DNA of 64,000 nt from Paenibacillus sp. FSL H8-0537 (lineage in GTDB: Bacteria; Bacillota; Bacilli; Paenibacillales; Paenibacillaceae): NCBI RefSeq assembly GCF_038051995.1, contig NZ_CP150290.1:1351501-1415500 (forward strand), given 5' to 3'. Below, piece by piece: positions 26,697 to 38,568 of the stretch (its first letter is position 1; each line of letters begins with the position of its first letter). The notes beneath the pieces were generated by a model, which was not told the origin of the DNA, did no database searches, and saw only the letters and a program-made list of their open reading frames with translations. Both the position numbers and the translations under genes were made by a program.

Positions 26697-27302
26697 ATGC
26701 GTAAATTAGTATTTTTTCTAGGCGGGGCGGGAGCGGGCAAGACGACGCTGGCCAAGGCGCTCGCACGGCGCAAGGGCGCTGCGATTTTTGATATGGATAC
26801 GCTGCTTCGTCCGGCTGCCGAAGCGATTATGACGGCATCGGGGCTCGATCCGAAGGATCGCGATTCGGAGCTGTATAAGGTGCGCTGCCGCGATCTCGGC
26901 TACCGGATTACGATGGATGCGGCTTTGGAAAATGTAGCGATTGGCACGGACGCGCTCGTCATCGGTCCTTTCACGAAGGAAACCGCTGATCCGCTGTGGA
27001 TTGAGCAGGAGCTGTCGGCTATCGGTGCAAGCCTGCGTGATGTGGCTGTGCGGGTCGTTCTTGTCTCCTTGCGGGATCAGGAGCTGCATCGCAGCCGGAT
27101 AGAGGAACGGGGCCTAGAGCTTGATGAATGGAAGCTTGGCAATTGGGAAGCCTTCAGCCGCTCACTGGGGCCGCGCAAGCTGAACTGGCCGATTTCAGCG
27201 TCTTCGGTGCTTGATTTTGATAATTCAGGCGAGCTGAATGAGGCAAAGCTGTTGCTGCTGGAGCACTTCGTATATGGTGATGACATCGTAGAAGGGGAGT
27301 GA
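26697..27302 (+). CDS. P-loop kinase/ATPase of unknown substrate
   Basis: 201 residues from the ATG at 26697 (GGGGGCG upstream; the in-frame GTG at 26682 would overlap that site). Walker A GGAGAGKTT at about residues 9-17, DMDTLLRP as the second-strand Asp motif, and an Arg-rich lid (LRDQELHRSRIEERG) give the adenylate/shikimate/polynucleotide kinase-like fold. It is not a full Pnkp kinase. It lies with the tubby-like gene (6-base gap) one terminator before hen1-pnkp, so a role in nucleic-acid or nucleotide phosphorylation is plausible but inferred. Confidence 0.75.
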   Translation: MRKLVFFLGGAGAGKTTLAKALARRKGAAIFDMDTLLRPAAEAIMTASGLDPKDRDSELYKVRCRDLGYRITMDAALENVAIGTDALVIGPFTKETADPLWIEQELSAIGASLRDVAVRVVLVSLRDQELHRSRIEERGLELDEWKLGNWEAFSRSLGPRKLNWPISASSVLDFDNSGELNEAKLLLLEHFVYGDDIVEGE

Positions 27303-27308
27303 GGCTGC

Positions 27309-27791
27309 ATGTCCTTATATTTCAGAGACAACTTCTTCAATTCCGGCAGTACAAGCATTATGAATGAGACTGGGCAGTCTGCGGGCTGGGTTAATCTGAA
27401 AAGTGCGTTCAGTACTTCGCTTGAAGTTTATAATGCCAATGATACGAAAATGTGCGAGGCGAGATTTCGATTTTTCTCGATGAAATGGGAAGTCAGCGAC
27501 AGTCAGGGCACTCCGCTTGGCACGCTGCGCCCTCGGATGAGCTTCATGAACAAGCGCTTCGATTATGATGCGGGCGAGCGAGGCTTTTATTTGATTGAGT
27601 CGCCGGCGTTTTCCAAGGAGTATATGATTATGAACCGCCGCGAGGAGTCGATTGCGAGCTTCGCGCAGACGAGCGGCTGGATGCAAAGCGGCGCTTATTG
27701 CTTATGGAATGAAACCCGCCTGCTTGGAGATTATGAGCTGATTGCCGTTATTATGGGCGTGAATGAAATTAGGAAGCGCCAGCACCAATAG
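27309..27791 (+). CDS. Tubby C-terminal/LURP-one-like domain protein
   Basis: 160 residues; GGGGAGTGAG upstream. An all-beta protein with the pattern NETGQSAGWVNLKSAF, SLEVYN, CEARFRFFSMKWEVSD, LGTLRPRMSF, then ALPxFS-like and NRREESIASF. This two-layered beta-strand/short linker rhythm is that of the YxjI/LURP-one (tubby-like) superfamily. No signal peptide. In other bacteria these are of unknown function, possibly phospholipid-binding. Six bases after the P-loop gene, so co-transcribed. Family call from pattern recognition only. Confidence 0.6.
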   Translation: MSLYFRDNFFNSGSTSIMNETGQSAGWVNLKSAFSTSLEVYNANDTKMCEARFRFFSMKWEVSDSQGTPLGTLRPRMSFMNKRFDYDAGERGFYLIESPAFSKEYMIMNRREESIASFAQTSGWMQSGAYCLWNETRLLGDYELIAVIMGVNEIRKRQHQ

Positions 27792-27837
27792 CGTGAATAG
27801 GAAAATGAACAGGCCGCCATGTCTTAATAATAGGCCT

Positions 27838-27873
27838 AAGTAAGCATGTGTGATTTCAACACATGCTTATTTG
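27838..27873 (+). terminator. Rho-independent terminator
   Basis: TAAGCATGTGT (27841-27851) pairs with ACACATGCTTA (27859-27869), followed by TTTG. Separates the P-loop/tubby pair from hen1-pnkp. Confidence 0.85.
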
Positions 27874-27975
27874 CCGTTGTCCTCCTATCAAAAAAATCAT
27901 GCTTCGTAATACTTCCGCCATGTTCATAAAGGCTTGCTTCGTGGAAAATGAAGGAAGTAGCCAGGGGGGGATAAC

Positions 27976-29397
27976 ATGTTTTTAACGATAAAAGCGCTGG
28001 GCGAGCATGCGGATAAGCATTCTTTTTTACTATCCAAGCATCCGGACCATTTATATGAACGCAAGGAAAAAGAGGCGCGCGTGTGCCTCGTTTATACGAT
28101 AAGCTCGCCAGAAGAAACGGAGGTTCTGCTGTTTGCAGAGCCCGATCCCATAGATTTGTACAAAGGAAGCCCGGAGCATTATGATATTACGCATTATATT
28201 AATGACCGCGAATTTGCGGTGAGCAGCTTGTTCTGTACCTACATGCGATCCGCACTCGGGACAGCCTTGAATGGCAAGCCGAAGGAGGCTTATGCCGAGT
28301 GGGTGCAGCATGCTTTCCAGCTGGAGCTGTCCTTCGGACCGCTCGCCTCGAATTTGCCGGACCGGACGATTGAAGAGCTGTTCGGCGCGCTCGGCTATGA
28401 GGTCGAGATTGAAAGGGCGGACATCGCCTATCCGTTTCAATTGAAAAGCCGCAGCTCGGCGCGGACGATTCGGCTTGCCGGCAAGCAGACGCTTCAGCTC
28501 GCCTTGCGCCAGCTGTTCATTATGCTGCCAATGCTGGACGATTATAAGCATTATTTTATTGGCGAGGATGAAACCGACAAGCTGCATCGGTATGGAGAAG
28601 GCTGGCTAGCGGGGCATCCGCAGCGCGAGCTTATTATTAGGCGCACGCTGCGCTTCAGCCCGCTGATTGCGAAGTTTAATCGCGAGCTTGCGCAGCAAAC
28701 GCAGCGGCAGCCGGAGGCTCAGCAGGTAGAGCAGGGCATAGTAGCCGGAGTAGAAATAGAAGTGGAGCCGCCGCGCAAAGCAAGGCTGAACGAGCTTCGT
28801 TATGAAGCGATAGCTGAAGTGGTGGAGGCGCTGCCTCAGCATGCGTCTATCGTAGACATGGGCTCAGGGGAAGGCAAGCTGGCGGCGAGGCTCGGAGCCG
28901 TAACGGGCGTGAACACGATTATGGCGGTAGAGCCTTCGGGCCGCTCGCAAATTCGCGCCTTGGAACGTTTTGCAAAGCTTGAGGGCAGGCAGGGCGCGGT
29001 AGTGCCGCAGGCTGTTATTGGCTCGCTTTTTTATTATGATGAATGGCTGTGTGGCAAAGATGTGCTGGTATTGTGTGAGGTCATTGAGCATATTGATGCC
29101 TTCCGGCTGGATCAGGCGATCGAAATGATTGTTTCGCGCTACAAGCCGCAGAGCTGGATCGTTACGACGCCGAATAAGGAATATAACACGCTGTATGAGC
29201 TGGACGACTATGAAATGAGGCATAACGATCATCGCTTCGAATGGACGCGGGAGCAATTCCGTGAATGGTGTGAAAAATGGGGCAAGCCATTCGGCTATGC
29301 AGTCCGTATATGCGGAGTTGGCGATGTGGATAGACAGTACGGACAGCCTACACAGATGGCTGTATTTACAAGATTAGAGGGGGATGGGCGATCATGA
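27976..29397 (+). CDS. hen1: RNA 3'-terminal ribose 2'-O-methyltransferase Hen1
   Basis: 473 residues, the bacterial Hen1 length. The N-terminal half (about 1-240) is the bacterial-specific domain that activates the Pnkp ligase. The C-terminal half (about 270-470) is the SAM methyltransferase: DMGSGEGKL 294-302, then the metal-binding set Glu368, Glu371 and His372 (CEVIEHID) and His419 (NDHRFEWTR). In the bacterial Pnkp/Hen1 system it marks the repaired RNA junction by 2'-O-methylation so a ribotoxin cannot recut it. AGGGGGG upstream. The stop overlaps the pnkp ATG (ATGA), so the two subunits are translationally coupled. Confidence 0.96.
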   Translation: MFLTIKALGEHADKHSFLLSKHPDHLYERKEKEARVCLVYTISSPEETEVLLFAEPDPIDLYKGSPEHYDITHYINDREFAVSSLFCTYMRSALGTALNGKPKEAYAEWVQHAFQLELSFGPLASNLPDRTIEELFGALGYEVEIERADIAYPFQLKSRSSARTIRLAGKQTLQLALRQLFIMLPMLDDYKHYFIGEDETDKLHRYGEGWLAGHPQRELIIRRTLRFSPLIAKFNRELAQQTQRQPEAQQVEQGIVAGVEIEVEPPRKARLNELRYEAIAEVVEALPQHASIVDMGSGEGKLAARLGAVTGVNTIMAVEPSGRSQIRALERFAKLEGRQGAVVPQAVIGSLFYYDEWLCGKDVLVLCEVIEHIDAFRLDQAIEMIVSRYKPQSWIVTTPNKEYNTLYELDDYEMRHNDHRFEWTREQFREWCEKWGKPFGYAVRICGVGDVDRQYGQPTQMAVFTRLEGDGRS

Positions 29398-32009
29398 GCG
29401 AACAGGATAAAAGGGTCATTCGGCTCCCCCATGCCGGTATTGTGCTATTGGTTGGCCCATCGAACAGCGGCAAAACGACGCTGCTGGACACGCTGATTGC
29501 AGCGGGTACGATCAAGGCGACTGAGGTTGTGTCTTCAGACCAGTTCCGCATGCTCGTTGGCGATGTGGAATTTATGGATTGGACCAGTCGCAGCAAGCTG
29601 GAATCCGATATTATTTACAAGCAGTATCAGCATATTTCGGCAAAAGCGTTCGAAGCGATGGAGGGCATGATCGCCATACGCTGTCGCTTGGATAAATTAA
29701 CGCTGATTGACGCAACGCATTTATATGAGGAAGACCGCAAGCGTTATGTGGAGCTTGCGCGGAAGCAGCATGTTCCGATTGTTGCGCTTGTGCTGGATAC
29801 GCCAGAAGAGGAGCTGCTTCGCCGGGATGGCAAGCGCGAGTTTCCTAGGGGCAAGCAGCGGGTGAAGAAGCAAGCGCATTTGTTCAAGCGCTCGCTGCGC
29901 AGCTTGAGGCTGGAAGGCTTTGACGCCAGTTATGTCGTGAAAGCGGCACAGCTTATGGATATTGCATTCGAGCGCAAAGTTAACCCGCTCGTTCATGAGG
30001 TGGGGCAAGGAATCGATATTATTGGCGACGTTCATGGCTGTTTTCAGGAGCAGTTGGAGCTGCTGGATAAGCTGGGCTATAAACCGGATGAAGCAGGGTT
30101 TTACCGCCATCCGGAAGGCAGATTGCCCGTATCGGTCGGGGATGTGATGAGCCGTGGGCCGGAATCGTTAGCGGCGATGGAATGGTGGCGCAAGCATGTG
30201 GAAGCAGGGCTTGCCTACATGACGGACAGCAATCATGGCTGGAAGATAGCGAGATTGCTAGACGGCAGGCAGGTTGAGCTTAGCCATGGCGACGAGAAAA
30301 CCGCAGCAGAGCTTGGGCAATTTGAGCGGGAGCATGGTGAAGAAGCAGCACGTATGCTGAAGGAGCGGCTTCGGATATTTTTACTGCAAGCGCCCCCGCA
30401 GCTCGTCTTTTGCCGCAATGGCGTGAGACAGCTCGTAGTTGTGCATGCGGGCATTCGCGACAGCTATATTGGCAAGCAATCGACTAAAATTCAGGACTAC
30501 TGCCGCTATGGGGAGCAGGGTGGTACCGATGCGGAGGGCAAGCCGCTGCGCAAGGAATGGTATAACGATCATGAGTCTGGCGAGCTTATCGTCTGGGGAC
30601 ATGATCCGCGAGTCGAGCCGACGATTATGAACCAAACGATTAATATTGATCAAGGCGCCGTATTTGGCGGGTATTTGACCGCATACCGTTACCCGGAGAA
30701 GCAGTTCGTACAAGTGAAGGCGTATGCTAATTATGCCGGGGAAGATCGCAATCCTTTGCTGGAGGGACAATTAAATCGGTTCAGGCAGCCAAATTTGCGA
30801 AAATATATTGAAGGGTACTCGGTGCTGACCTCCGCTTATGGCGATATAACGGCCCGAGGCGAATTCGTTAAAGCGGCGATTGATACCGTATCGCATTATA
30901 CGGTGCCGCTGGAGGAGCTGGTGTATATTCCGCCGACGATGAGTCCGCCGCCACAGACGGCTGAGGATGAGCGGTATTTGGAGCATCCGGCCGAAGCCTT
31001 CGCCTATTATCGTTCACAAGGCGTAGAGAAGATGATCATGGAGAAAAAGCATATGGGCAGCAGAGCCATCGTGCTGCTGTTTCGAAACGAAGCCGCAGCT
31101 GCCTCGTATGTCGGCCGGCAGACACTAGGCGTCATTTATACTCGAACAGGCAGAAGGTTCTTCGAGCCTATGCTTGAGGAGCAAGTGCTGCGGCAGTTGA
31201 ATGGCGATTTGACGAAGGCGAATTATTTTGACCGTTACGGTACGGATTTAGTGCTGCTGGATACGGAAATTGTCCCGTGGAATTTAAAGGCTCGGGAGCT
31301 GATTGCTTCGCAATATGCCCATGTGGCAGAGGTTTCGCTGATGGACAGACGGGCCAAAATCGCCAAGCTGCGGGAGGCGAACGGCGCGGGCAAAGCTGTG
31401 CAGCACTGGATTGATGAGCTGGAAATCAAGCTGGGCAACGCCGAAACGTTCGAGCAGGCATTCCAGCAATATTGCTGGGATACGAATGGCCTGGAAGGTA
31501 TTCGAATTGCGCCTTTCCACACGCTGGCGCATAGTACAGCAAGCTACCAAAGCAAGCAGCACAGCTGGCATATGGAGCATGCGCGCGAGCTGGCTGCTTG
31601 CTCGGAGCTGTTCATGGAAACGGAATATAAGGTTGTAACTGATGAGGCCAGTGAGCTTGCGGCGATTCGGTGGTGGGAGGAAATGACGGAGCAGGGGCAT
31701 GAAGGGGCTGTCGTTAAGCCGGAGTATTTTGTCGCCAGACATAAAGGAAGACTGATCCAGCCGGCCATTAAAGTCAGAGGCCGCAGCTATCTGCATATTA
31801 TTTATGGCATGGATTATTTGCTGCCCGAAAATCTGCAAAGGCTGAAGCAGCGCAAAACAAGCAAAAAGGAGCGTTATGCGCTCAAGGAATTTGCGCTGGG
31901 ACTGGAGTCGGTGGAACGGTTTATTCGCAAGGAATCGGTGGAGCGGATTCATGAATGTGTGCTTGCCGCTTTATCCATGGAGTCGGATTCGGTTGATCCG
32001 CGGCTTTAG
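29394..32009 (+). CDS. pnkp: Polynucleotide kinase-phosphatase-ligase Pnkp
   Basis: 871 residues, close to Clostridium thermocellum Pnkp (870). Kinase about 1-190 with P-loop GPSNSGKTT (21-29). Metallophosphatase about 205-445: Asp212/His214 (GDVHG), Asp250/Arg254 (GDVMSRGP), Asn280/His281, His351 (VVHAG), His403 (WGH). Ligase about 470-871 with adenylation Lys552 in KHMGSRA. It heals 5'-OH and 2',3'-cyclic phosphate RNA ends, then seals them with Hen1. Oddities: the usual GDxxDRG is GDVMSRG (Ser253 for Asp), the usual GNH is SNH and YGHT is WGHD; the core metal ligands remain. Overlaps hen1 by 4 bases. Confidence 0.96.
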   Translation: MSEQDKRVIRLPHAGIVLLVGPSNSGKTTLLDTLIAAGTIKATEVVSSDQFRMLVGDVEFMDWTSRSKLESDIIYKQYQHISAKAFEAMEGMIAIRCRLDKLTLIDATHLYEEDRKRYVELARKQHVPIVALVLDTPEEELLRRDGKREFPRGKQRVKKQAHLFKRSLRSLRLEGFDASYVVKAAQLMDIAFERKVNPLVHEVGQGIDIIGDVHGCFQEQLELLDKLGYKPDEAGFYRHPEGRLPVSVGDVMSRGPESLAAMEWWRKHVEAGLAYMTDSNHGWKIARLLDGRQVELSHGDEKTAAELGQFEREHGEEAARMLKERLRIFLLQAPPQLVFCRNGVRQLVVVHAGIRDSYIGKQSTKIQDYCRYGEQGGTDAEGKPLRKEWYNDHESGELIVWGHDPRVEPTIMNQTINIDQGAVFGGYLTAYRYPEKQFVQVKAYANYAGEDRNPLLEGQLNRFRQPNLRKYIEGYSVLTSAYGDITARGEFVKAAIDTVSHYTVPLEELVYIPPTMSPPPQTAEDERYLEHPAEAFAYYRSQGVEKMIMEKKHMGSRAIVLLFRNEAAAASYVGRQTLGVIYTRTGRRFFEPMLEEQVLRQLNGDLTKANYFDRYGTDLVLLDTEIVPWNLKARELIASQYAHVAEVSLMDRRAKIAKLREANGAGKAVQHWIDELEIKLGNAETFEQAFQQYCWDTNGLEGIRIAPFHTLAHSTASYQSKQHSWHMEHARELAACSELFMETEYKVVTDEASELAAIRWWEEMTEQGHEGAVVKPEYFVARHKGRLIQPAIKVRGRSYLHIIYGMDYLLPENLQRLKQRKTSKKERYALKEFALGLESVERFIRKESVERIHECVLAALSMESDSVDPRL

Positions 32010-32127
32010 AGGATGAGGGATGAGGGAAGGAAAGGTATAAAAGCGGGAGCTGCTCTTGAAAATGAGCGGCTCCCGCTATTTGCATTGTATTCGATCAGCA
32101 AACGTTTATCGGTAATATTCAAAAGGC

Positions 32128-32155
32128 TTGACAAATCATTTAATAATGTCATAAT
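32128..32155 (+). promoter_or_regulatory. Probable sigma-A promoter of the nrtR-like gene
   Basis: TTGACA (32128-32133) and CATAAT (32150-32155), 16 bases apart. The overlapping stretch TAATGTCATAATGATAATA contains repeated TAAT units and could be the NrtR operator (autoregulation), but no clean palindrome is visible. Confidence 0.55.
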
Positions 32156-32200
32156 GATAATATCAAATAGAAAATTAAATGGTAACAGGAAGTGAAGCAC

Positions 32201-32965
32201 TTGATCGAAAATGAATCCAACTATTCGCCCGATCATTACCGAACGCCGGACGGAGCGCCGACGGACATCGTGATCTTTACGATTGTTTCAACCGAGCGCA
32301 GCAAGGTTAAGAAAGCTTTGCCGCATCATGAGCTGCAGGTGCTGCTCATCAAACGTAACATTTGGCCTTTCGAAGGGCAATGGGCGCTGCCAGGCGGTTT
32401 TACATTGGAAACCGAGACGGTGCAGGAATGCGCCAGACGTGAGCTGCTCGAGGAGACGCAGGTTAGCGAGGTTCATCTCGAGTATTTTAATGTATATAGT
32501 GCGCCCGGACGTGATCCGCGGGGCTGGATGATTTCACATGCGTTTCTGGCACTCGTGGGTGAGCAGCAGCTTGCGAATCGGCAGGCGGCGGTCGACGCAT
32601 CGGAAGTACAGCTGTTCCCGGTAGCGGATGCGCTGAAGCTCCCGCTCGCCTTCGACCATCGGACTCTGATCGAGGATGCGCTGCTCCAAATTCAGCGGAA
32701 GATGCTGACGACGACGATAGCGAAAGCTTTTTTACCAGATGAATTTACGATTGCCGAGCTGTATCAGGTCATTCAAGCGGTCGTGCCGGATTTTGCGGAA
32801 CAAAACTTTATTCGGAAAATCACATCGACGCAAAGCCGCAGCGGCATTATTGAGAAAGCCGTGGACGCGGCGGGGGAGCCGAAGTCATCGAATTTGTATT
32901 CGCAGCGCCCGGCTCAGCTGTATCGGTTTACGGGACATGAACCGCAGCTGTCGATTTACGGTTAG
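32201..32965 (+). CDS. nrtR: NrtR-type Nudix-HTH transcriptional regulator of NAD metabolism
   Basis: About 254 residues from TTG 32201 (AGGAAG 9 bases upstream); a GTG at 32192 would sit directly against that site. Nudix-like domain about 10-145: LPGGFTLETETVQECARRELLEETQ keeps much of the Nudix box, but GX5E lies in a modified context. Winged-helix domain about 160-254 (FTIAELYQVIQAV...FIRKI, LYRF). NrtR proteins bind ADP-ribose as an inducer and repress NAD synthesis or salvage genes. It directly precedes a prs-like and a nampt-like gene, which makes NAD salvage the natural target. Confidence 0.86.
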   Translation: MIENESNYSPDHYRTPDGAPTDIVIFTIVSTERSKVKKALPHHELQVLLIKRNIWPFEGQWALPGGFTLETETVQECARRELLEETQVSEVHLEYFNVYSAPGRDPRGWMISHAFLALVGEQQLANRQAAVDASEVQLFPVADALKLPLAFDHRTLIEDALLQIQRKMLTTTIAKAFLPDEFTIAELYQVIQAVVPDFAEQNFIRKITSTQSRSGIIEKAVDAAGEPKSSNLYSQRPAQLYRFTGHEPQLSIYG

Positions 32966-33060
32966 CTCCCAGAGTAAGGGAAACAGAGCATATCAGAGTG
33001 TGTCAGAGCGGAATGGCAGATTTAAATAGTAACTACGTAGCAGCGAGGAGAGTGAGTTAG

Positions 33061-33870
33061 ATGATCAAGCTCAATGGCACGGAGCTAGCATTCAAGACGT
33101 TTCCCAATGGAGAAACGCTTGTAGATGGTGATGCGATTACGGAGCTTATGGCCGAGCAGAATACGCTTGCTTTTAAATATGAGAATGACAGCGACTTGAT
33201 TAAGCTGATGTTCGTGAAGCAATATTTGGACAGCCGTAAGGTGCACGCCGACTTGACGATTGCTTATATGCCCTACAGCCGAATGGACCGGATCGAGGGA
33301 GCCTCTGTTTTTACTTTGAAATATGTATGCGGCCTGATCAACTCCTTGGCATTTGGACAGGTGACGGTGCTGGAGCCGCATTCGGATGTGACGCTAGCGC
33401 TGCTTAACAATTGCTCGGCACGGTATCCGACGATTGAGCTGCTGGACCTTGTTGTTGAGGCAACGGGCTTTGACCGTGCGGCGGACTATTTATTTTTCCC
33501 TGATGCCGGGGCGCAGAAGCGCTACAGCAAAGTTCGCGGCTATAACGAGCTGGTCGGCTTTAAGGCGCGGAATTTTCAAACGGGTGAAATTGAACGGTTA
33601 GATGTGGTTGGGCAAGTGGCAAGCGAGGGCTTTAAGGCGATTATCGTCGATGATCTTTGCTCCTACGGGGGAACGTTTATGCGCAGTGCGGAGAAGCTCA
33701 AAGGCTTGGGCGCGGCGGAAATTTATTTGCTGGTAGGGCATTGTGAGCCTTCGATTCATAAGGGCAAGCTGCTTGATTCGCCGCTTATCGATAAAGTGTT
33801 TACGACCAATACGATGCTGAATGAAGCAGGACATGAGAAAATCCAACTTTTTGAATGGGGAGAGGTTTAA
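33061..33870 (+). CDS. Short PRPP synthetase-like protein (Prs family; possible Adps)
   Basis: 269 residues against about 315 for housekeeping Prs. N-terminal KTFPNGETLVDGD corresponds to the Prs FxDGE segment; YMPYSRMDR to the DxHxxQ/YxRxDR region; IIVDDLCSYGGTF is the PRPP-binding loop; FFPDAGAQKRYSKV replaces the usual DxGxxRA motif. GGAGAG upstream. One base separates it from the Nampt-like gene. Ordinary role: make PRPP for nicotinamide salvage. Alternative: ADP-ribose pyrophosphate synthetase (Adps), the first enzyme of the phage NARP1 NAD-rebuilding pathway, which looks like a Prs. Sequence reading alone cannot decide. Confidence 0.85.
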   Translation: MIKLNGTELAFKTFPNGETLVDGDAITELMAEQNTLAFKYENDSDLIKLMFVKQYLDSRKVHADLTIAYMPYSRMDRIEGASVFTLKYVCGLINSLAFGQVTVLEPHSDVTLALLNNCSARYPTIELLDLVVEATGFDRAADYLFFPDAGAQKRYSKVRGYNELVGFKARNFQTGEIERLDVVGQVASEGFKAIIVDDLCSYGGTFMRSAEKLKGLGAAEIYLLVGHCEPSIHKGKLLDSPLIDKVFTTNTMLNEAGHEKIQLFEWGEV

Positions 33871-33871
33871 A

Positions 33872-35359
33872 ATGACGACGAAGACAGCTTACCCTGCGAC
33901 ACTGCTATGCGATTTTTATAAAATCAGCCACAAAAACCAGTATCCGAAAGGGACGGAATTCGTCTACTCGACCTGGACCGCCCGTACTAGCCGGCTGGAA
34001 GGCGTGGAGGAAGTGGTCGCCTTTGGTTTTCAAGCCTTCATTAAGGAATATTTGATCGACTATTTCAATGAGCATTTTTTCGCAAGAACGAAGGAGGAGG
34101 TTGTGGAGGAATACTGCCGCGTGCTGAAATTTGCGCTGGGCGACGCTAATCCAGATGCTTCGCACATTGCTGCGCTGCATGAGCTTGGCTACTTGCCCAT
34201 TCGCATCAAGGCTGTGGAGGAAGGCTTGATCGTTCCGGTTAAAGTGCCGATGCTGACGATTGAAAATACGCATCCCGAATTTTTCTGGGTGACCAATTAT
34301 TTGGAGACGCTCATGTCGTGCCAGCTGTGGATGCCGACAACGAGCGCGACGATTGCTTTTGAATACCGTAAAATTTTGGAGCAATACGCTTTGCTGACAA
34401 GCGGCGATACGTCGGGCGTCCCTTTTCAGGGGCATGATTTTTCGATGCGGGGCATGAGCTCGCTGGAAGCGGCAAAAGGCAGCGGCGCTGGGCATTTGCT
34501 ATCGTTCACAGGAACGGATACGGTTCCGGCGATTTTGTATCTGGAGCAATTTTATGGCGCGGATATGGAGAAAGAGCTGGTTGGCACTTCGATTCCAGCA
34601 ACGGAGCACAGCGTCATGTGCGCCCATGGCACCGATGAAATGGCGTCGTACCGCTACCTGATTAATGAGGTATATCCGAAAGGCTTTGTCTCGATTGTTT
34701 CGGATACATGGGATTTGTGGAGCGTGCTCGATGTGGTGGTCAGAGGGCTTAAAGAGGATATTCTCGCCCGCGACGGCAAGGTTGTCATTCGTCCGGACAG
34801 TGGCGATCCGGTCAATATCATTTGCGGCGATCCCGATTCGGAGCATCCACTGGCGCGCAAAGGCGTTATTGAAATTTTGTGGGATATATTCGGCGGTACA
34901 GTGACCGAGAAGGGCTATAAGCAGCTTGACAGCCACATTGGCGCGATTTATGGGGATGCGATTACGATCAGCCGCTGCCGTGAAATTTGCGAGAGGCTGG
35001 CGGAGAAGGGCTTTGCATCGACAAATATGGTATTCGGCATCGGCTCGTTCACTTACCAGTACAATACACGCGATACATTCGGCTTTGCGCTGAAATCGAC
35101 GTTTACGATCATTAACGGCGAAGAGCGTAAAATTTTCAAAGACCCAGCAACCGATATCGGCAAAGTGAAAAAATCGCAAACCGGACTCGTACTCGTAACC
35201 GAGCAGGACGGCGTGCTGACACTCACGGACGATTTGAGCGTTCAAGAGTATGAGGCAAGGAAGCAGGAGGACGTAATGAAGCCGATTTTTGAAAATGGCA
35301 AGCTGGTGCGTGAGCAGGAGCTGGCAGGAATTCGTGCCAATTTGCTGGGGAACTTGTAG
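33872..35359 (+). CDS. nadV: Nicotinamide phosphoribosyltransferase-like protein (NadV/Nampt; possible Namat)
   Basis: 495 residues from the ATG at 33872 with GGGGAGAGG upstream; the longer frame to 33821 lies within the previous gene. Typical Nampt features: LLCDFYKISHKNQYPKGTE, HDFSMRGMSSLEAA, SVPATEHS-like STSIPATEHSVM, and VIRPDSGDPVNI binding the ribose phosphate. It would convert nicotinamide plus PRPP to NMN, or, if its partner is Adps, nicotinamide plus ADP-ribose pyrophosphate straight to NAD (Namat activity). Coupled to the prs-like gene by a 1-base gap. No NMN adenylyltransferase is in the cluster. Confidence 0.93.
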   Translation: MTTKTAYPATLLCDFYKISHKNQYPKGTEFVYSTWTARTSRLEGVEEVVAFGFQAFIKEYLIDYFNEHFFARTKEEVVEEYCRVLKFALGDANPDASHIAALHELGYLPIRIKAVEEGLIVPVKVPMLTIENTHPEFFWVTNYLETLMSCQLWMPTTSATIAFEYRKILEQYALLTSGDTSGVPFQGHDFSMRGMSSLEAAKGSGAGHLLSFTGTDTVPAILYLEQFYGADMEKELVGTSIPATEHSVMCAHGTDEMASYRYLINEVYPKGFVSIVSDTWDLWSVLDVVVRGLKEDILARDGKVVIRPDSGDPVNIICGDPDSEHPLARKGVIEILWDIFGGTVTEKGYKQLDSHIGAIYGDAITISRCREICERLAEKGFASTNMVFGIGSFTYQYNTRDTFGFALKSTFTIINGEERKIFKDPATDIGKVKKSQTGLVLVTEQDGVLTLTDDLSVQEYEARKQEDVMKPIFENGKLVREQELAGIRANLLGNL

Positions 35360-35445
35360 GAACGGTTGACGGATGGGTCAAGCGGTGGTGCCGCACATTT
35401 GTGAAATGCATATTTGTGAAATTATATTTAAAAAAAGATGGAATT

Positions 35446-35485
35446 TTAATGCCTCGCATCTAAATTAGATGCGGGGCATTTTTGC
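35446..35485 (+). terminator. Terminator of the NAD salvage operon
   Basis: AATGCCTCGCATCTAA pairs with TTAGATGCGGGGCATT, followed by TTTT. Confidence 0.92.
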
Positions 35486-38058: not shown

Positions 38059-38130
38059 TATTTTCAGTTCCCTAGTACCATTTGCCTACCAGCTTTTGCA
38101 TAATACGAAATTGATGTATCAGTTTCAATG

Positions 38131-38568
38131 TTTGCTACTGTTGCACTCCATACGGAGTGCTACTATTTGTCTGTAAGTATCCTAGACTCTTCGATAAGTT
38201 TCAATCCACGCACCCCATACGGAGTGTGACGGTATACGACACGATGCGCAACCGTGCTGCAGGCGTTTCAATACACGCACCCCATACGGAGTGCGACTGT
38301 TGCTTTAATGAGCTTGCCAGAGGCAAAAAGGTTTCAATCCACGCACTCCATACGGAGTGCGACTATGTATTCCCTAGGAGCGAGAATTGCTTATTTAAGG
38401 TTTCAATCCACGCACTCCATACAGAGTGCGACGCAAGCAACAGAGCAATAGTCATCTCACCGTAAGTGTTTCAATCCACGCACTCCATACAGAGTGCGAC
38501 GATACCTGGTACCGCAGTGGCTTTTCAAGAGGTCAGTTTCAATCCACGCACTCCATACAGAGTGCGAC
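38131..38568 (-). CRISPR. Orphan type I-C CRISPR array
   Basis: Six well-kept 33-bp repeats start at 38198, 38265, 38331, 38400, 38468 and 38536; each begins GTTTCAATCCACGCAC (one C-to-A change at 38265) and ends GAGTGCGAC (GAGTGTGAC at 38198). A seventh, decayed repeat ends at 38163. Spacers are 34, 34, 33, 36, 35 and 35 bases. The inner palindrome GCACTCC/GGAGTGC and the GTGGATTGAAAC end read on the minus strand are type I-C. Repeat decay at the low-coordinate end places the leader at the high end, so transcription is on the minus strand. No cas gene is in the window. A CGGA-to-CAGA change marks the three leader-proximal repeats. Confidence 0.96.

Follow-up and report, generated by a model that had tools for sequence, protein, structure and literature searches.

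A probably self-contained NARP1 operon with a putative ADP-ribose-responsive regulator beside an apparently independent RNA-repair pair in Paenibacillus

The subject of this article is a stretch of 64,000 nucleotides from Paenibacillus sp. FSL H8-0537 (assembly GCF_038051995.1, contig NZ_CP150290.1), which we call the window. Between 26697 and 35359 lie seven open reading frames (ORFs), all on the + strand and all where the original prediction had put them from its ORF list. They include an RNA-repair pair, hen1 and pnkp, followed by genes for an NrtR-type regulator, a Prs-like protein and a Nampt-like protein. The original prediction took the last two for an NAD-rebuilding pair and saw in the whole a combined locus for recovery after damage. 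What we propose is less unified. The segment from 32128 to 35480 is probably a self-contained operon for the NAD-restoring pathway NARP1, derepressed by ADP-ribose through its NrtR-type regulator, with hen1-pnkp as an independent neighbour that likely has a recovery role in common with it, though not one pathway. Every gene and regulatory site of the segment given below is on the + strand.

The Prs-like and Nampt-like proteins were rightly coupled and rightly tied to NAD. The description can be made more specific, since the pair has the sequence hallmarks of Adps and Namat, the two enzymes with which NARP1 builds NAD straight from ADP-ribose and nicotinamide, without salvage through 5-phosphoribosyl 1-pyrophosphate (PRPP). 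Adps (33061–33870) is the ADP-ribose pyrophosphokinase and matches phrog_619 at 233 bits; Namat (33872–35359) is the nicotinamide ADP-ribose transferase and matches phrog_448 at 664 bits. The ORF caller began namat at 33821, but the ATG at 33872, 1 nt past the adps stop, fits both homology and spacing better. Among chains in the PDB, the window Namat scores 796 bits against 9w5w, presumably the SPbetaL1 Namat described by Lan et al., and about 238 bits against Nampt chains such as 6e68. The signature GSx-Phi-x-Phi-x-Phi-TRD, given by Lan et al. as a Namat motif absent in Nampt (PMC12774641), is present as GSFTYQYNTRD. All 20 of the NAD-contact residues described in that paper are identical by position, among them the clamp residues Arg40, Phe392, Tyr396, Thr398, Arg399 and Asp400 as well as the catalytic residues. 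The orthologues from Paenibacillus foliorum, 67% (Adps) and 80% (Namat) identical to those of the window, restore NAD in vitro and offset the action of an NADase in vivo (PMC12774641); earlier surveys of chromosomal NARP1 are cited there too. As an enzymatic step, then, bacterial NARP1 is nothing new.

To see how NARP1 is kept, we assembled 44 Paenibacillaceae loci, 36 from a sample of 295 genomes of the family (a 37th Namat match, only 34% identical, in G143, was dropped) and eight named-only loci. Adps adjoins namat in all 44. A HAD-like ORF of 134 residues stands within the operon before adps in 10 of them (L014:8792–9196, for instance), and 9 of 27 IMG/VR loci have an ORF of this kind (phrog_1238, no Pfam match) next to one of the two NARP1 genes; it is possibly a third NARP1 component.

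The nrtR product (32192–32965) has a Nudix domain (PF00293, 64.9 bits) and a winged helix (PF21906, 29.9 bits against a cut-off of 27), in agreement with the original prediction, and its relatives in the PDB are 3gz5 (94 bits) and 3gz8 (79 bits), presumably Shewanella NrtR. In 43 of the 44 loci an nrtR gene begins no more than 3.5 kb from namat, upstream in 27 and downstream in 16. Ahead of the operon, at 32143–32163, lies a predicted NrtR operator, an imperfect 21-bp palindrome (8 of 10 pairs) with the core TRTCATNATGAYAATAT. It overlaps the -10 box of a sigma-70-type promoter-like site at 32128–32155 (TTGACA-16-CATAAT, 11 of 12 consensus positions), the highest-scoring such site in the 9.3 kb scanned, and this is the placement expected of a repressor site. 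With at most one mismatch, TRTCATNATGAYAATAT recurs 40–117 bp before the first gene of the operon in 43 of the 44 loci, and the 21-bp form pairs at 6 to 9 of its 10 positions at other NARP1 loci. The sole locus with neither nrtR nor operator, L182 in G046, is also one with a divergent adps-namat (namat about 60%, partial). Where nrtR is downstream, the site stands before adps or the HAD-like gene, so that it tracks the promoter and not the regulator gene. An exact copy occurs once in the 7.0-Mb window genome. Two further sites, at 4137725 and 6079439, have one mismatch, and the genes around the latter were matched by no query that we used.

Related regulators suggest what the signal might be. 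ADP-ribose releases NrtR of Mycobacterium smegmatis and Streptococcus suis from DNA in the work described in PMC6800001, and it antagonises related NrtR proteins (PMC9503650). The linkage of nrtR and the palindrome in 43 of 44 loci suggests an operon induced by the very ADP-ribose that it recycles once NAD has been broken down, and makes ADP-ribose a concrete candidate trigger.

Several observations weigh against this picture and should be set out together. Operator-like sites with up to two mismatches number 36 in the window genome, against 7 for a reversed control pattern, and the excess is perhaps made up of boxes for another regulator. The 7-1-7 form of the palindrome recalls Fur-family boxes, and another regulator could use the predicted operator. 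The regulator itself scores 115.7 bits against NF050029, the NtrR equivalog, whose cut-off is 400; by this measure it is a divergent NrtR-type protein and not the equivalog. Its Nudix box (32393–32464), GX5EX7RELLEETQV, departs from the usual box only in the last Gly and keeps the catalytic glutamates; the protein may thus do more than sense ADP-ribose and may also hydrolyse it, combining the roles of enzyme and regulator. The Nudix box of M. smegmatis NrtR is altered, and C. glutamicum NrtR responds differently to NAD (both in PMC6800001). Finally, the suggestion that RNA repair and NARP1 share a purpose draws on proximity within one bacterial family.

Taken together, these elements would work as follows. 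Anti-phage NADases, ADP-ribosyl transfer or toxins would break NAD to ADP-ribose and nicotinamide. NrtR, sitting on the near-palindrome over the -10 box, would repress the operon until rising ADP-ribose freed it, and the breakdown product would thereby induce its own recycling. With ATP, Adps would convert ADP-ribose to ADP-ribose pyrophosphate (ADPR-PP), which Namat would join to nicotinamide to give NAD, two steps in total. Next door and behind its own terminator, hen1-pnkp would attend to broken RNA by 5'-phosphorylation, 3'-phosphate removal, 2'-O-methylation and ligation. The two modules would share a chromosomal site, each gained and lost separately, and would probably be neighbours through a common use in recovering from attack. 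The cell may have an ADP-ribose source of its own: the same genome encodes, at L232:2968–6477 (contig C1, about 6.89 Mb), a SIR2-NB-ARC (SIR2-STAND) protein of 1169 residues with a ThsA-like N terminus (98.9 bits), a candidate NADase. A TIR_2 search of the genome found none.

The gene identities bear out an RNA-repairing module and an NAD-restoring one, as the original prediction had it. Hen1 (27976–29397), an RNA 3'-terminal 2'-O-methyltransferase, scores 366.6 bits against TIGR04074 (cut-off 340), matches PF12623 (Hen1_L) and has 4dqz and 3jwg as PDB relatives. Pnkp (29394–32009), an RNA 5'-kinase, 3'-phosphatase and ligase of the canonical bacterial Pnkp-Hen1 type, scores 767.3 bits against TIGR04075 (cut-off 750), matches PF16542 and is related to 4drf, 3ty8, 4j6o and 4gp6. 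The two genes overlap by 4 nt, and their predicted identities and coupling hold. From pnkp to nrtR is 182 bp. Within that short distance lie a terminator-like hairpin that would close hen1-pnkp (32042–32077, a 14-bp stem with 10 G-C pairs) and the promoter-like site of the NARP1 operon, which would end in its turn at a second terminator-like hairpin 3' of namat (35448–35480, 15 pairs). These calls are consensus matches, to be read against 18 promoter-like sites versus 9.1 in shuffled sequence and 17 terminator-like sites versus 10.0. Another hairpin, before hen1 at about 27840–27870, was seen by eye and is not in the scan's list. A search that allowed up to two mismatches showed no operator ahead of hen1, rtcB or rlaP, either at the loci scanned or in the window's own genome. 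As far as sequence can tell, these findings do not support a single transcript or operator for RNA repair and NAD recovery. The seven genes share an orientation and probably not a transcript, given the intervening signals, an operator found only at NARP1 and the separate losses to which we now turn.

Four genomes make up the window clade (G000, which is the window's own, G247, G043 and G203), with Namat proteins 95–100% identical. Hen1-pnkp is kept in G000 and G247 and gone from G043 and G203, in both of which NARP1 is intact. In G043 the 160-residue gene that precedes hen1 in the window comes directly before nrtR, and the last 50 nt or so of pnkp remain with the terminator as a deletion scar. 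What is left in G203 is a stretch of 76 nt that matches the terminator region at 83%. Before nrtR, G247 and G203 both carry an unrelated insert of 3 kb (SfsA, HTH-WYL, NmrA). To judge from the remnants, this clade once had hen1-pnkp and has lost it since, in one event at least and probably in two, while NARP1 stayed.

Across the family the named pair fares no better as a linked system. Canonical Pnkp occurs in 45 of the 295 genomes (one copy a fragment) and Namat in 36, yet they meet in only 2, G000 and G247, where 5.5 were expected. Canonical Pnkp and NARP1 are not co-conserved in the family, contrary to the expectation that pnkp-hen1 and the NAD module would co-occur beyond chance; they are independently placed in most relatives. 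Canonical Pnkp is, however, an incomplete test, missing as it does a divergent Hen1'-Pnkp' type. A tblastn search of Pnkp against NARP1 loci gave a 21–23% homologue a few kb 3' of namat at six named loci, and one such region (L004) holds RtcB, RlaP, a Hen1 with a Hen1_N domain and the divergent Pnkp (Pnkp'). Pnkp' is found in 78 of the 295 genomes, partial and split genes included, and RlaP in 233, both mostly without NARP1. Within the 36 NARP1 genomes RlaP is present in 31 and RtcB, which was searched there only, in 30.

Distance tells a different story from co-occurrence. We measured from namat to the nearest of RlaP, RtcB, Pnkp and Pnkp' (RtcB and RlaP having been added after L004 was seen) under a null of uniform placement, which ignores insertion hotspots; draft contigs hide some distances. 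Of the 36 genomes, 10 have a repair gene within 2 kb where 0.10 would be expected, 13 within 10 kb (0.24) and 17 within 25 kb (0.50). Counted by clade, of which we assigned 14 ourselves on a single Namat tree whose deep branches are weakly supported, the figures at 2, 10 and 25 kb are 2, 3 and 4 against 0.04, 0.09 and 0.19 expected (P 6e-4, 9e-5 and 3e-5). Without the window clade, 15 of 32 genomes have a repair gene within 25 kb, and 1, 2 and 3 of 13 clades at the three distances (P 0.03, 3e-3 and 5e-4). In the remaining 19 of the 36 NARP1 genomes no tested repair gene lies within 25 kb, the gene being on another contig, farther away or absent. Four of the eight named-only loci have a repair gene in their flanks (L004 and L028 the full cluster, L010 and L016 RtcB only) and four do not (L014, L017, and L012 and L013, whose flanks are shortened). 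Clustering of NARP1 with RNA repair is recurrent in this family, and it is this part of the proposed combined recovery locus that stands; a single system, with the signals and losses separate, is not supported.

The arrangements are varied. Canonical hen1-pnkp precedes NARP1 in the window clade. In a second clade, B, the order is kin-GFO-nrtR-adps-namat-RtcB-RlaP-Hen1'-Pnkp', with RtcB 0.3–1.5 kb past namat; some members have RtcB-RlaP or RlaP only, and G103 and G119 have NARP1 there without repair genes. The kinase-like gene kin is a positional marker of the site in the window clade and most of clade B, standing upstream of NARP1 in the window clade, the clade B loci and G119. We read six repair regions without NARP1: four (G272, G252, G031 and G151) share the kin-GFO site, with RtcB or RlaP next after GFO, and in the other two (G145, G196) kin was not seen. 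In Cohnella endophytica (L158:69–15684) a ten-gene array, TROVE-RlaP-Hen1'-Pnkp'-RtcB-SWIM-HEAT-MoxR-DUF5682-VWA, is followed 182 bp on by adps-namat-nrtR. In five other Cohnella-type genomes the repair genes are separated from NARP1 by 8–21 kb and intervening genes; four of these genomes have RlaP-RtcB-Hen1'-Pnkp' and the fifth (G225) has RlaP and a split RtcB. P. foliorum has RtcB 1.8 kb upstream of nrtR, with two ORFs between, and P. radicis has it 0.4 kb past namat.

How much of this is chance? Accident of chromosome history, meaning one or two chance encounters between the modules whose order was then passed on while nothing selected for closeness, is a genuine possibility, though in our view less likely than not. 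With the kin site in common, the window clade and clade B may go back to one event, and the Cohnella-type groups may have a single origin, perhaps another; independent bacterial clustering events may for this reason be only two or three. Under the strictest merging (window clade with B, and the two Cohnella-type clades together) the excess shrinks to 1, 2 and 2 of 12 clades at 2, 10 and 25 kb (P 0.03, 2e-3 and 0.01), with 0.16 expected at 25 kb. RtcB is moreover common, and hotspots fall outside the null. Against accident stand the differences between the repair sets (canonical Hen1-Pnkp, RtcB-RlaP-Hen1'-Pnkp', RtcB alone), their positions on different sides of NARP1, and the counts for unmerged clades, with and without that of the window. 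A phage also tells against it. Alicyclobacillus phage KKP_3916 (L177:7147–12028) carries adps-namat, a small ORF and a trifunctional kinase/phosphatase/T4-Rnl1-type ligase, annotated only as hypothetical.

At the other extreme is the original prediction in its full form, one integrated recovery system in which damage by phage or toxin would call up hen1-pnkp and NARP1 jointly and the two would work as a unit. We find this unlikely. The 182 bp between the modules, the repair genes just past namat in clade B (RtcB-RlaP, in some with Hen1'-Pnkp'), the 182 bp again in C. endophytica, the phage ligase and the SIR2-STAND candidate in the same genome all speak for it. The hairpin and promoter-like site between the halves, the confinement of the operator to NARP1, the meeting of canonical Pnkp and Namat in so few genomes and the occurrence of each module without the other at the same site speak against, as do the NARP1 genomes with no repair gene near and the many RlaP and Pnkp' genomes with no NARP1. 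Beyond the family, a search for Namat across Bacillota found it in 1 of 398 genomes, the window's own. At six NARP1 loci from outside Paenibacillaceae (L025–L027, L030, L031 and L033) none of six repair queries matched, a set without KptA, RtcA or LigT; L025 and L033 are short, and L033 ends before the Namat motif. The same queries found nothing near namat in phage SPbetaL1 (8 kb upstream, 0.9 kb downstream) or in the 27 IMG/VR loci apart from one 24% TROVE match, although many phage RNA ligases would escape them.

Could NARP1 be anti-defence cargo left by a prophage? It has close phage relatives (72% for KKP_3916, 69% for SPbetaL1), yet we judge this very unlikely: among the 19 window ORFs scanned, a part of the total, none is a phage structural or integration gene; the same kin site is occupied in several species; and 43 of the 44 bacterial loci come with their own regulator, whereas of phage records 1936 match Namat (Nampt included), 55 match NrtR and 9 do so over at least 80% of its length. 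Ordinary salvage, in which a Prs homologue supplies PRPP from which a Nampt homologue makes nicotinamide mononucleotide (NMN), is suggested by family names, NCBIfam matches and the PRPP-to-NMN activity that Namat keeps in vitro (PMC12774641), but is barely credible and was rejected as an identity for the pair, because the Prs-like protein of 269 residues scores 71 bits against TIGR01251 (309 positions, cut-off 113) and its partner has the adenine clamp that defines Namat.

We return, then, to a probably self-contained NARP1 operon, putatively derepressed by ADP-ribose, with an independent RNA-repair neighbour whose link to it in function may be a shared role in recovery. A bolder version may be offered tentatively, as something rather doubtful: that Paenibacillaceae have a modular island for recovery after attack, with NARP1 beside interchangeable RNA-repair cassettes, by which a cell survives its own abortive defences. 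If so, the product of NADase immunity would be turned back into NAD and ribotoxin damage undone by the adjoining cassettes. Some bacteria would then detect NAD destruction through the product that it leaves and undo it, a matter of interest for the survival of NADase-type abortive infection, and the repeated placement by RNA-repair genes would point to programmed recovery and not only programmed death.

Some neighbours deserve mention. The P-loop kinase of the original prediction, kin (26697–27302), does match AAA_33, at 26.7 bits just under the cut-off of 27. The conserved protein of 160 residues at 27309–27791 had been called tubby/LURP-like, a label we drop: it has no assigned family and no Pfam match even at E≤5. 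A homologue (55%) lies immediately 3' of namat in P. nasutitermitis (L007:11558–12034). Shortly downstream of the operon are a gene of the AlkZ-like DNA glycosylase family (PF06224, 36865–38058) and a CRISPR-like array (38128–38568) of 7 repeats spaced at 66–69 nt, presumably of a kind resembling type I-C. Rfam gave no match between 23 and 40 kb of the window, and PADLOC gave weak partial matches for pnkp (21.5 bits) and nrtR (24.1 bits) and none for the other window genes scanned. Bacillus phage G (L179) has an NrtR-like protein, 47% identical, in a mixed NAD/RNA-repair cluster annotated with nicotinate phosphoribosyltransferase, a KptA-like protein, nicotinate nucleotide adenylyltransferase and NAD synthetase.

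Control of NARP1 by an NrtR-type regulator seems to be unreported so far. The main text of PMC12774641 has no match for NrtR, Nudix, RNA repair or Pnkp, and among the matches listed by our literature search, whose scope did not extend to subscription papers, no publication joins NARP1 with NrtR or with RNA repair. Set beside known systems, the window is a composite of familiar parts. Its hen1-pnkp is like bacterial Pnkp-Hen1 in its two above-cut-off equivalog matches and adjacent, overlapping genes; it differs from other canonical loci in having no adjoining RlaP (present in 5 of the 7 we read) and in its place beside NARP1. With the NARP1 of phage SPbetaL1 and P. foliorum described in PMC12774641 the window operon shares the same two enzymes, in the same order, with the adenine clamp and catalytic residues; what the window brings to that description is a regulator gene proper to the operon and a promoter site conserved across loci. 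The NrtR proteins of NAD metabolism (3gz5/3gz8, and that of M. smegmatis in PMC6800001) likewise combine Nudix and winged-helix domains, are encoded by NAD genes and have a palindrome at their own promoter, whereas the predicted target here is NARP1 rather than nadA/B/C, the site sequence is another, the Nudix catalytic glutamates are kept and the protein falls below the NtrR cut-off. Closest in spirit are the Nudix- or WYL-controlled ADP-ribose systems predicted in PMC9503650, with which the window shares the idea of a Nudix-HTH factor that senses ADP-ribose in order to control recovery; those systems have ADP-ribosylglycohydrolase (ARG) domains, and the window has NARP1 in their stead.

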